Assembly (NCBI GenBank): GCA_005880345.1
Contig: VBGE01000118.1
Span: 1 to 8,647, forward strand
Direction: 5' to 3'
DNA length: 8,647 bases
Source: Chloroflexota bacterium
Lineage (GTDB): Bacteria > Chloroflexota > Dormibacteria > Dormibacterales > Dormibacteraceae
Positions 2,648 through 6,565 of the stretch are shown here, one piece after another. Both the position numbers and the translations under genes were made by a program. Position 1 is the first letter of the stretch. Every line of letters starts with the position of its first letter. Under the pieces are notes generated by a model. That model saw only the letters and a program-made list of their open reading frames with translations. It was not told the origin of the DNA and made no database searches.

Positions 2648-4729
2648 ATGCCAGTGCTCGTTCTCCCTCATGCCCTGGACGCTCGGGTCGAAAGCCTGAA
2701 GTCCATCGGCAAGGCCAACGCCGAGCGGCTGGACAAGCTCGGGGTCAAAACCGTGCGCGACCTGCTCCTCACTCTGCCCTTCGCCCAGGACGCATTCATG
2801 GATACGAAGATCTCCGCGCTTGTTCCCGACACGCTCGCATCCGTCACCGGCACCGTGCTCTCGATCAAGCCGATCGTGACCCAGCGTCGCCACATGCGCC
2901 TGGTCGAAGCCATCGTCGCCGACGACAGCGGGGCTCAGCTCCGCGCCGTGTGGTTCAACTCAAGGTTCGTCCTCAAGTACCTGAACAAGGGCGACCGGGT
3001 GACCCTCGCCGGAACGGTCGAGAAGTCCACCTACGGCGGCCGCATCGGAATGGTCAATCCGCGTTACGAAGCGCTCGAGGGCAACGGCGAAGCTGGGCCG
3101 AAGAAAGTCGGCGGCATGACCCCCAGGTACCACCTGGTCAACGGCCTCACCTCGCGCAAGATCGCGGACTGGGTCGAGCAGGTGCTCCCGCTGGCCGACC
3201 GGCTCGAGGATCTGTTGCCGGAAGAGGTGCGAGAGCGCCACCACCTCGGAGATGTCGCCGACGCCGTTCGTCGCGGTCACAAGCCCGAGAACGAAGCCGA
3301 CTTCCGCGAGGCGAAGCGGCGCATGGCCTTCGCCGAGCTGTTCGAGCTGCAGACCGCGTTCGCGATGGTGCGCGCGAGCGTGGCGGCCGAGCCGGCGACG
3401 CCCATCCCGTACGAGCAGGAAGTCATCGACGCTTTCAAGACAGGAGTCGGATTCGACCTGACTAGGGCGCAGCGCAAGGCGACATGGGACGCGTTCAAAG
3501 ACATGCAGCAGACCATCCCCATGAACCGCCTCCTCAACGGCGACGTCGGATCCGGCAAGACCGCCGTCGCCGCAGCCTGTGCGGCCATGGCGCACGCCGC
3601 GGGAATGCAGACCGTCGTCATGGCCCCGACCGAGATCCTCGCGCGACAGCACCTGCGCAAGTTCCGCACGTACCTGGAGGAGAGCTTCAAAGGCCTCACC
3701 GTCGAGCTCCTGGTCAGCAGCCAGAGCGCCGCCGAGCGTCGCCGCGTGCGGACCGCAGCGGCGTCCGGCCACTGCGCGCTGGTCGTCGGCACACACGCGC
3801 TCATCGAGGACGACGTCGAGTTCGCCAACCTCGGCCTCGCGATCGTGGACGAGCAGCACCGCTTCGGCACACGTCAGCGCGAGCTGCTCCGGGCCAAGGG
3901 CCGCGGCAGGCCCCACTTCCTGGCCATGACCGCAACTCCGATTCCGCGCACGCTCGCGCTCGCCCTCTACGGCGAGATGACGCTTTCCGTCATCGACGAG
4001 ATGCCGCCGGGCCGCACCCCGGTCGAGACGGAGGTCATCGAGCCTGACGCCCGTGCCCGCGCCTACGACATCGTGAGACGCGAGGTCGACGCCGGCCACC
4101 AGGCTTTCGTCATCTGCCCCCTCATCGAGGAGTCCGAGTCCGTGATCGCGCGCTCCGCAACGGCCGAATTCGAGCGCTTGCAGAAGGACATATTTCCGCC
4201 GCCCATCCGGATGGGACTCATCCACGGCCGCATGAAAGAGAAGGACGAGGTCATGCAGCGCTTCGCTTCAGGCGACATCCAGGTCCTCGTCGCCACGGCG
4301 GTGGTCGAGGTGGGCGTGGACGTGCCGAACGCGACGGTGATGATGATCGAGGGCGCCGACCGCTTCGGCCTCGCCCAGCTGCACCAGTTCCGCGGCCGCG
4401 TCGGCCGTGGTTCAGCGAGCAGCTGCTGCCTCTTGCTTGCCGACGATCCAACGGACCGGACCCTGGCCCGGCTCGCGCTCGTCTCACGCATCCGCGACGG
4501 GTTCAAGCTCGCCGAGGAGGACATGCGCCTGCGCGGCATGGGCGAGCTCATGGGCCCGCGCCAGCACGGCATGTCCGATGTCGCGATGGACGCGCTCCAG
4601 CAGCCCGAGCTCCTGAATGACGTGCGCCAGGAGGCTGAGCTCATCGTCAGCCATGACCCTGAGCTCAAGGCTCATCCCTCCCTCAGGGCGGCGGTCATCC
4701 GCCGCGTGGAGCTGACCTCGATCAGCTAG
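2648..4729 (+). CDS. recG: ATP-dependent DNA helicase RecG
   Basis: A 693-residue superfamily 2 helicase that reverses stalled replication forks and branch-migrates Holliday junctions; this is the same length as the E. coli enzyme. The N-terminal wedge/OB-fold lies at about residues 50-150 (LASVTGTVLSIKP, then WFNSRFVLKYLNKGDRVTLAGTV). The helicase core carries Walker A GDVGSGKT (298-305), APTEILARQH (motif Ia), Walker B DEQHRFG (401-407), TATPIPRTLAL (428-438), VVEVGVDVPNA and QFRGRVGRG (580-588). The C-terminal RGMGELMGPRQHG corresponds to the TRG translocation motif, usually RGPGEFLGTRQSG. The start is ATG 2648; no Shine-Dalgarno precedes it, and an anchor-like ATG on the other strand begins 28 bp away, so the promoter region is very compact. 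Its end overlaps the convergent dioxygenase gene by 8 bp. All motifs are intact. Confidence 0.97.
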   Translation: MPVLVLPHALDARVESLKSIGKANAERLDKLGVKTVRDLLLTLPFAQDAFMDTKISALVPDTLASVTGTVLSIKPIVTQRRHMRLVEAIVADDSGAQLRAVWFNSRFVLKYLNKGDRVTLAGTVEKSTYGGRIGMVNPRYEALEGNGEAGPKKVGGMTPRYHLVNGLTSRKIADWVEQVLPLADRLEDLLPEEVRERHHLGDVADAVRRGHKPENEADFREAKRRMAFAELFELQTAFAMVRASVAAEPATPIPYEQEVIDAFKTGVGFDLTRAQRKATWDAFKDMQQTIPMNRLLNGDVGSGKTAVAAACAAMAHAAGMQTVVMAPTEILARQHLRKFRTYLEESFKGLTVELLVSSQSAAERRRVRTAAASGHCALVVGTHALIEDDVEFANLGLAIVDEQHRFGTRQRELLRAKGRGRPHFLAMTATPIPRTLALALYGEMTLSVIDEMPPGRTPVETEVIEPDARARAYDIVRREVDAGHQAFVICPLIEESESVIARSATAEFERLQKDIFPPPIRMGLIHGRMKEKDEVMQRFASGDIQVLVATAVVEVGVDVPNATVMMIEGADRFGLAQLHQFRGRVGRGSASSCCLLLADDPTDRTLARLALVSRIRDGFKLAEEDMRLRGMGELMGPRQHGMSDVAMDALQQPELLNDVRQEAELIVSHDPELKAHPSLRAAVIRRVELTSIS

Positions 4730-5546
4730 GCGGTAGGTACGACGCCGTCAACATCCCGAAATACGTCGGCGCCTCATACGAAATAAGGTCGCCGCGCCAC
4801 CCGCGCACCGCTCCATGCAGGATCAGCATCTGCCACCAGCTGTCGGCCTTGGCGCTCTCGACCAGGCCGGGAGAGATGTCCGCCAACCGATCGAGGCGGT
4901 TCTCGCGGACGAGATCGAAGACCAGACCGTCGTATTCGCGCGCCGCCGGGTCGAACCCATAAGGCCCGCCCTCGAGGTGCGCGTGTCCGTGGTCCGCGCT
5001 GGCGATGAACGCGACTCGCCGGCTGCTCTGGGCCGCCACCGCAGCGATCGCCGCCCCCGCCGTCACGTGGTCTGAGGCCGGCAGGTCGCGCGCGGGCGTG
5101 ACGACGACGATTGGCAAGGCCGGCTCGCGCCTCCCGCCCATGAACCACAGCGGGATCAGCACGCCCCAATCCATCGGCGCGACCGCAGTCGCTGGATCGT
5201 TGGAACCGAAGCTCACGCCCGCCGCCGTCAATCCCGCGCCGCCCATCGCCTCGAGCACGCGCCATGCCAGCTCCATGTCCGAGGGCACGTCCAGCTCGAT
5301 CGGCGGCACCACGCCGTTCAACCGTCCCTTCACGCGACTTGCGACCACCACACCCAAAGCGCTCGCGATGTGCACGTTGTGCGGCGTCGCGACCACGGTC
5401 ACGTCCGGCGCGGCCGCAGCAAACCGACGGCCCAGCTCCTCCATGCCCGCGCGAGTGACAGCAGCCACATCCCGCTCCTCCGGCGCGCACGCCTCGGCGA
5501 TGGCGATGCCTCCGTGCGGCGCGATCGCTCCGAACACCAGAGGCAT
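4722..5546 (-). CDS. Class III extradiol ring-cleavage dioxygenase, LigB/MEMO superfamily
   Basis: A 274-residue LigB-superfamily protein. Members cleave catechol-type rings with non-haem iron or, like MEMO and AmmeMemoRadiSam system protein B, have other roles. Visible motifs are IAPHGG (His11), ATPHNVHI (His56), SFGSNDPATAVAPMDWG (residues 112-128), SADHGHAH (183-190, with His186 and His188) and SYEAPTYFGMLTASY (256-270, with Glu258). His11, His56 and Glu258 match the usual iron-ligand pattern of LigB, and His186 or His188 would be the catalytic base; these assignments are by analogy. The start is ATG 5546-5544, with a TAGTAT hexamer 6 bases upstream. It is divergent from selD across only 20 bp and convergent with recG. 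No ring-hydroxylating or downstream catabolic genes are nearby, so the substrate is not evident, and a radical-SAM partner is not seen. Confidence 0.85.
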   Translation of the reverse strand: MPLVFGAIAPHGGIAIAEACAPEERDVAAVTRAGMEELGRRFAAAAPDVTVVATPHNVHIASALGVVVASRVKGRLNGVVPPIELDVPSDMELAWRVLEAMGGAGLTAAGVSFGSNDPATAVAPMDWGVLIPLWFMGGRREPALPIVVVTPARDLPASDHVTAGAAIAAVAAQSSRRVAFIASADHGHAHLEGGPYGFDPAAREYDGLVFDLVRENRLDRLADISPGLVESAKADSWWQMLILHGAVRGWRGDLISYEAPTYFGMLTASYLPPS

Positions 5547-5551
5547 GGCCC

Positions 5552-5557
5552 GATACT
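5552..5557 (+). promoter_or_regulatory. -10-like hexamer before selD
   Basis: GATACT lies 9 bases before the ATG at 5567 in the 20-bp gap between two divergent genes. It would give a very short leader or none. It overlaps the candidate hexamer of the opposite gene, so the two promoters may compete for polymerase. Weak evidence. Confidence 0.3.
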
Positions 5558-5558
5558 A
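5553..5558 (-). promoter_or_regulatory. -10-like hexamer for the dioxygenase gene
   Basis: On the minus strand TAGTAT fits TANNNT and is followed by exactly 6 bases and then the ATG of the dioxygenase gene, the spacing expected for a leaderless transcript starting at the A of ATG. No -35 element was confirmed. Confidence 0.4.
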
Positions 5559-5566
5559 ACCACCAC

Positions 5567-6565
5567 ATGGACAGCCCTCTGCGATTGACGGAGTACAGCC
5601 ACGGCGCGGGTTGAGCATGCAAGCTCAGCCCGGTGGAGCTAGGGCAGGTACTCGGGGCGCTGCCCCCGGTCGTCGATCCGAACGTGCTGCACGGTGCGGC
5701 CGCGCGCGATGACGCGGCGGTCTATCGCATCGCGCCCAACCGCGCCCTCGTGGCCACGGTCGACTTCTTCACGCCCATCGTCGACGATCCCTACGCCTAC
5801 GGCGCCATCGCCGCCGCCAACGCGCTCAGCGACGTGTATGCGGTCGGCGGCACGCCGCTCTTCGCCCTCGGCCTCACGGCATTTCCACGAGACAGGCTGG
5901 GCACCGGCATGCTGGAGAGGATCGTCGCCGGCGGCGCCGCCAAGATGGCCGAGGCGGGCATCGACGTGGTGGGCGGCCACTCCGTCGACGACCCCGAGCC
6001 GAAGTTCGGCTACACGGTCATCGGCGAGGTGAACCCGAAGAAGGCCGTCGGCCACGCCGGCGCGGTCGGGGGCGACATCCTGTTCCTCACCAAACCGCTC
6101 GGCACCGGCCTCGTCACGACCGCGATCAAGCGCGGTCTCTGTCCACCCGACCTCGAGGCCGAAGCGATCACGGTGATGACCAGGCTCAACCGCGAAGCCT
6201 CCGAGCTCATGGTCAAGGTCCGGGCGAGCGCGGCGACAGACGTCACGGGCTACGGCCTCATCGGCCACCTCGCCAACCTGCGCGGCGAGGCGGACATCGA
6301 CTTCGACTCCGTGCCCTTCATGAAGGGTGTCGGCAACCTCGCCGAACGCGACCTCTTCCCCGACGGGAGCCGTCGCAACCACGCCGCATTTCGCGACCGC
6401 GTCGAGTGGGGCGGTCTCGGCGAGCGCGAGCAATTGATGCTGTGCGACGCGCAGACCAGCGGCGGCCTGCTCGTCGCCGTCCCGCCCGAACGAGCCAAGC
6501 GTTTCCGCGTCGGCGACAGGATCGGCGTCATGCGCGACGACGGCGCGATCCGGATCCGCGCGTGA
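5567..6565 (+). CDS. selD: Selenide, water dikinase SelD, a selenoprotein with Sec encoded by in-frame TGA
   Basis: SelD makes selenophosphate from selenide and ATP, the selenium donor for Sec-tRNA and selenouridine. From ATG 5567 the frame reads LRLTEYSHGAG, TGA (codon 16, 5612-5614), ACKLSP and continues to TGA 6565, giving 332 residues including Sec. E. coli SelD has YSHGAGCGCK here, so Sec16 aligns with catalytic Cys17, Cys18 with Cys19, and Lys19 with Lys20. The body has ARDDAAVY (Asp48/Asp49), TVDFFTPIVDDPYAYG (Asp66), AANALSDVYAVGG (Asp89), GGHSVDDPEPKFGYTVIG, ATDVTGYGLIGHL and LCDAQTSGGLL, all SelD hallmarks. A start at GTG 5633 would drop the catalytic residues. Sec at this position is known in SelD of other organisms, for example Haemophilus. 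The stop overlaps the rsmD start (GTGA). Sec insertion is inferred, but the alignment on both sides of the TGA is strong. Confidence 0.93.
5618..5646 (+). promoter_or_regulatory. Candidate bacterial SECIS hairpin in selD
   Basis: Just after the TGA codon the bases AGCTC (5622-5626) pair with GAGCT (5636-5640) around a 9-base loop that contains G at its second position and a GGT. Below it TGC (5618-5620) can pair with GCA (5644-5646) across a small internal loop. Position and form agree with a SelB-binding bacterial SECIS, which lies within the coding sequence directly 3' of the UGA. A competing pairing of GCCC (5628-5631) with GGGC (5642-5645) exists. Found by eye; no folding was run. Confidence 0.55.

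Follow-up and report, generated by a model that had tools for sequence, protein, structure and literature searches.

Sec-containing SelD proteins, changes from Sec to Cys in SelD and the usual misannotation of selenoproteins have all been described before (PMC4561486, PMC1794560, PMC13188914, PMC12013277, PMC1088965, PMC8704476, PMC4513850; in each case as far as the available text of the source goes). In the accessible part of PMC4561486, Sec is reported in 19% of the prokaryotic SelD proteins detected, always at the same catalytic position. According to the available portion of PMC1794560, SelD accounts for 20% of the Sec-to-Cys events detected, and the Cys genes show remnant SECIS-like structures. 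The bSECIS model given in the available text of PMC13188914 has a loop of 3-9 nt with G in its first two places, a stem of 4-16 bp and a distance of 16-37 nt from the UGA, together with a fourth condition that concerns free energy. Among the literature matches listed, no title or abstract opening deals with Sec in the Dormibacter, Dormibacterota or Chloroflexi lineage. Here we describe a selD gene whose in-frame UGA is very likely decoded as Sec; tRNA-Sec and SelB would do this under the direction of a bSECIS hairpin predicted at 5628-5645. Sec-SelD as such is already known from other bacteria; the present gene comes from an uncultured, little-studied lineage. Like other bacterial Sec-SelD proteins, it has Sec at one catalytic position and relatives with the full Sec machinery. 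Unlike them, its nearest named kin are records labelled Chloroflexi (CF_47, CF_6, UBA10874) and Candidatus Dormibacteraeota (S89_Bin_3), and its best database copies are mostly shortened.

The window, by which we mean the whole stretch of 8,647 nucleotides that was analysed, is contig C407 of an assembly of 1.95 Mb in 411 contigs that is 63% complete. The gene and the two codons on which its reading depends are:

5567..6565, plus strand: selD, selenide, water dikinase, 332 residues with Sec16, stop TGA at 6563-6565 (translation, profile, alignment, relatives)
5612..5614, plus strand: in-frame TGA, very likely Sec16, at the position of E. coli Cys17 (alignment, genomes of the order)
5633..5635, plus strand: GTG of Val23, the start according to gene callers, within the predicted hairpin (ORF list, database homologues)

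Read from ATG 5567 to TGA 6563-6565 with TGA as U, the frame encodes 332 residues with U at position 16, and the N-terminus of this read-through translation of 5567-6565 is MDSPLRLTEYSHGAG-U-ACKLSP... The TGA at 5612-5614 is the only one inside the frame. The first-pass annotation had placed this TGA on the Cys17 position of E. coli SelD with both flanks aligning, and a phmmer alignment with PDB chain 3u0o, which we take to be E. coli SelD, agrees: residue 16 pairs with C17, both flanks are aligned, and residues 18 and 19 (K19) pair with Cys19 and Lys20. Cys17 of the E. coli protein is presumably the catalytic residue, and the Lys that follows is assumed to be catalytic likewise. Comparison of the 332-residue reading with SelD families, as had been proposed, gave a match of near full length to the NCBIfam selD profile TIGR00476 (346.7 bits at a cut-off of 125, profile positions 1-310 of 311). 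The version beginning at GTG 5633 scores 315.5 bits.

It had also been claimed that Sec16 is hidden from ordinary gene calling and that an annotation from GTG 5633 would lack the Sec, the second Cys and the Lys. Both statements hold. The table 11 ORF list yields only a 310-aa frame, from GTG 5633, and the alignment as well as the database homologues confirm the loss of the three residues. Among the best 120 of 7998 matches in 5.8 billion predicted proteins (one of the 120 being the window's own ORF), 109 begin downstream of the Sec position, and in 103 of these the first residue is precisely the Val encoded by GTG 5633. The other 11 have the N-terminus and are all printed with C at the site, and two of these match the TGC locus L024 described below. 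Most of the best-matching SelD copies are thus without the catalytic end and would mislead structure or activity studies that use them. The ORF list and the 103 homologues could instead be taken to mean that translation really starts at GTG 5633, giving a short SelD without the catalytic residue and leaving the upstream frame untranslated. We judge such a start very unlikely. The motif LTEYSHGAG-U-ACK or a near variant is kept upstream of the GTG in 34 of 34 Sec genes of the order and aligns with E. coli SelD, two Cys relatives carry the same N-terminus in one open frame, and GTG 5633 itself sits in the predicted hairpin.

The occurrence of the TGA in related genomes was assessed by searching 42 genomes of the order with the read-through protein as query, of which 37 gave some match. 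A SelD match of at least 423 bits was found in 36 of the 42 genomes; exactly one TGA lies inside the match in 34 of these 36 and none in two. The codon was read at all 36 loci (30, and six added later) and is TGA in 34 and TGC in two, namely in G001 (locus L024, same genus) and G030 (locus L031, another genus). Genome G023 (87% complete) has selA and selB above cut-off and, for SelD, only a stretch of 26.8 bits and 31% identity; the missing SelD probably reflects an incomplete assembly. At the level of the class (110 genomes), TGA-bearing SelD occurs in families f1 and f4, and in f4 such a match is present in 17 of 17 genomes with a listed match. The same class-level search gave no SelD match with a stop in f2 and f3, where 10 loci were fetched and Cys stands in eight of the eight read. 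In a protein tree built from 50 rows after masking of the Sec column, the two Cys genes of the order fall at separate spots within the Sec clade, which makes two Sec-to-Cys changes in the order together with its named kin. Both Cys genomes, G001 and G030, retain tRNA-Sec, selA, selB and a formate dehydrogenase match interrupted by an in-frame TGA, so Sec was lost from SelD and the trait was kept.

With respect to the Sec machinery, the expectation that the organism should hold selA, selB and selC was borne out in part. A tRNA-Sec gene is present in the same assembly (G000:C310:14574-14669, 68.3 bits at a gathering score of 47) and is called by ARAGORN as tRNA-SeC with anticodon TCA (UCA). In the 63% complete source assembly, selA gave no match at all and selB none above cut-off; the best selB-like match, at 165 bits, is probably another translation factor. 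In the order, selA adjoins selB on one contig in all 34 genomes that have selB above cut-off. Given this adjacency and the completeness of 63%, a single missing contig would account for both absences. Across the 42 genomes of the order, selB is above cut-off in 34 and selA in 36, and tRNA-Sec reaches at least 65 bits in 32; it lies above the gathering score in 35, some of these scoring 47-53 bits and possibly being other tRNAs. Relatives have further formate dehydrogenase-type genes with an in-frame TGA, and in these genes, just as in fdhF and fdnG of E. coli, the UGA is followed by a His codon. Three TGA-bearing formate dehydrogenase types were seen in the class (L211-L239, L254, L276-L335). 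As a separate observation, the TGA-bearing FdhA of relatives has about 640 residues and matches its model from position ~51 only (L247 4583-8864, L248 4900-5775), and in several genomes the first ~53 model positions lie in a separate protein of ~290 residues about 2.5 kb downstream, as if the FdhA alpha subunit were split with its catalytic part first. Selenouridine synthase was considered as a second use of SelD and discarded, with 0 of 42 genomes above cut-off and one weak match.

An in-frame UGA does not by itself name the residue, and the lineage might have reassigned or suppressed UGA as an amino acid other than Sec. This is less likely still than a start at GTG 5633. UGA is the true stop codon of selD in 30 of 35 genes, so that it has not been reassigned globally; moreover, the assembly has a tRNA-Sec whose anticodon is UCA, Cys occupies the site in two relatives, and the UGAs of the relatives' formate dehydrogenases stand before His as in the E. 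coli enzymes. An error of sequencing or assembly at the TGA, or a recent pseudogene, as the fragmented and incomplete assembly might suggest, has next to no probability and is already refuted by other genomes, since 34 of 36 genomes of the order and another family of the class share the TGA, and no other in-frame stop occurs in the order.

A block of constraint was found in the nucleotide sequence around the UGA:

5585..5647, plus strand: region in which synonymous sites are frozen, spanning codons -9 to +11 relative to the UGA (alignment of the Sec genes of the order)

The synonymous test used 28 of the 34 Sec genes of the order, with amino-acid-matched codons beyond +26 as control. Mean pairwise synonymous identity in codons -9 to +11 is 0.904 vs 0.581 in the control (Wilcoxon p 4e-5, where p values serve as a guide only, the sequences sharing ancestry). 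Both sides of the UGA contribute, the upstream part with 0.854 vs 0.558 and the downstream part with 0.945 vs 0.600. Codons +12 to +25 show a milder effect (0.694 vs 0.551), and beyond +26 none of 245 windows of 22 columns exceeds 0.70. The Cys orthologues provide a natural control. Within the block, their identity to the Sec consensus is 0.55 and 0.61, the two lowest values of 30; outside the block it is 0.65, at the bottom of the Sec range of 0.65-0.76. Their drift within the block suggests that the synonymous constraint is linked to the decoding of Sec rather than to the protein. The present case resembles the known conversions of SelD from Sec to Cys, with two Cys orthologues that lie apart from each other within a Sec clade and with TGA-bearing formate dehydrogenases kept; unlike them, it offers natural controls in which the synonymous constraint is seen to be released.

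The downstream part of the block contains the element that we propose as bSECIS:

5628..5645, plus strand: predicted bSECIS hairpin, stem GCCCGGU/GCU-A-GGGC, 7 bp (helix scan, pairing counts, published bSECIS conditions)

The alignment of the 34 Sec genes was scanned for helices of 5-7 pairs with at most one bulge and more than 93% paired. In this short-helix scan the hairpin at positions 17-34 from the UGA ranks first by pair types and then by fraction paired. It has a GGA apical loop (5635-5637), a bulged base at 5641 and 20 nt between UGA and loop. In 33 distinct rows, 97.8% of 231 cells are paired, as against at most 57% for slid versions; rows L028, L243 and L246 do not hold the hairpin in the same register. 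Most of the substitutions are compatible with pairing (U-G to C-G in four rows, U-G to U-A in one, G-U to A-U in two). The covariation is not significant, however: three further pair types are seen, a number matched in 422 of 500 shuffles, and no two-sided pair change occurs in the 33 distinct rows, so that covariation is no proof of the hairpin. Likewise, the free energy of the 48 nt from the UGA is not clearly better than in codon-shuffled controls (fraction at or below the observed value 0.01-0.55, 30 loci). Loop, stem and spacing agree with three of the four conditions of the model in PMC13188914, a rule that is permissive in GC-rich DNA. The predicted hairpin resembles the bSECIS of E. 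coli fdhF in lying 3′ of the UGA, in its 3-nt loop with G first and in the spacing of 20 nt. It differs in that constraint here also extends upstream and is strongest at the -1 codon.

A longer hairpin from UGA+4 to +38 was considered as well. It is the RNAalifold consensus in 5 of 6 windows starting at or just after the UGA (28 rows, 98.7% paired) and was rejected when, after addition of six more distant loci, pairing dropped to 96.4% and both stems were broken. These breaks, together with the extra pair types of the shorter hairpin, lead us to prefer the latter by a narrow margin. When 96 columns are folded, a long-range stem with upstream bases appears. In f4 a hairpin of different sequence (GGUCC/GGACC type) is predicted at a similar position in all 10 loci read. 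We also note that Leu at +9 (5639-5641) is encoded by CTA in 24 of 34 Sec-SelD genes, where CTA makes up 0.4% of Leu codons, and that the A of this codon is bulged out in the predicted hairpin.

On the upstream side, the constraint culminates in a single codon:

5609..5611, plus strand: Gly codon GGT just 5′ of the UGA (GGT in 34 of 34 Sec-SelD genes of the order; 11% of Gly codons elsewhere there)

Sec-SelD genes have GGT at -1 in 34 of 34 cases in f1 and in 10 of 10 in f4. The formate dehydrogenases of the class each have a fixed codon of their own at this place: ACT in fdhA (31 of 31; 3% of Thr codons), GTT in a second type (32 of 32; 5% of Val codons) and ATA in a third (21 of 21; 0.3% of Ile codons). 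In the class, then, the -1 codon is a single rare A/U-ending synonym for each family in 128 of 128 distinct Sec-UGA loci read; all loci are related by descent, and the independent units are four families, not 128; further TGA-bearing formate dehydrogenase matches exist in relatives. A/U-ending codons make up only 11-15% overall in the same selenogenes. Formate dehydrogenase rows were kept by conserved flanks, which fix the -1 amino acid but not the codon, and chance frames were excluded by this flank rule (16 of 39 and 1 of 10 rows in two FdnG-like groups). In all three formate dehydrogenase families the Arg codon at -2 varies. Cys-SelD genes of the class have an A/U-ending codon at -1 in 2 of 10 cases read, with GGG and GGC in the two Cys orthologues of the order and GGC (five), GGG, GGT and GGA (one each) in the eight f2/f3 genes.

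A simpler rule of U at -1 was dropped, being broken by ATA in the fourth family. The base before true SelD UGA stops in the order is U in 13 of 30, so that U alone does not tell Sec from stop. Outside the order the pattern is looser. E. coli fdhF and fdnG have GTC at -1. Named genomes outside the order supplied 38 Sec-SelDs, of which L069 resembles family f4; A/U-ending codons at -1 are not enriched in this set (16 vs 13.9 expected, P 0.27), and GGT is found in 16 of 38, with 6.1 expected, and is commoner there than in named Cys-SelD (5 of 38; Fisher p 0.009). Because of these deviations the -1 codon may be a lineage-specific part of the signal. Other rare codons are mostly frozen downstream, for example CTA at +9 in selD and GGT/AGT at +7 and ACA at +10/+11 in the formate dehydrogenases, and the -1 codon could thus be the edge of a longer RNA constraint. 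The +7 codon is GGT in two formate dehydrogenase types and AGT in the third, which puts GGU/AGU 22-24 nt from the UGA; a GGU also lies 22-24 nt from the UGA in E. coli fdhF. Among the literature matches listed, no title or abstract opening states a rule on the codon before a Sec-UGA. We consider it possible, though somewhat short of an even chance, that the Sec recoding signal in this class starts 5′ of the UGA with a fixed -1 codon (GGU, ACU, GUU or AUA). The codon would act, we infer, in the P site, where weak pairing with the anticodon at the third position would probably give SelB an advantage over release factor 2. If this is true, a 5′ element is overlooked by the bSECIS model, which considers sequence downstream of the UGA, and the influence of the P site on the choice between Sec and termination becomes directly testable.

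Upstream of selD, two further features were noted:

4722..5546, minus strand: LigB-type dioxygenase homologue, head-to-head with selD, 20 bp from the selD ATG
5552..5557, plus strand: GATACT, candidate -10 element separated from the selD ATG by 9 nt (a motif with a putative promoter role)

The GATACT(A/T) between selD and the LigB-type gene (5546-5567) could serve as a -10 box in both directions. In 24 of 30 loci of the order (L012-L041) an ATACT motif begins 12-18 nt upstream of the selD start. The selD mRNA may be nearly leaderless.

Returning to Sec decoding of the selD UGA, SelB would bind the hairpin at 5628-5645 and full-length Sec-SelD would be made. The enzyme would supply selenophosphate for its own Sec and for the TGA-bearing formate dehydrogenases of relatives. 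The gene carries a known kind of Sec-SelD into a little-studied lineage.
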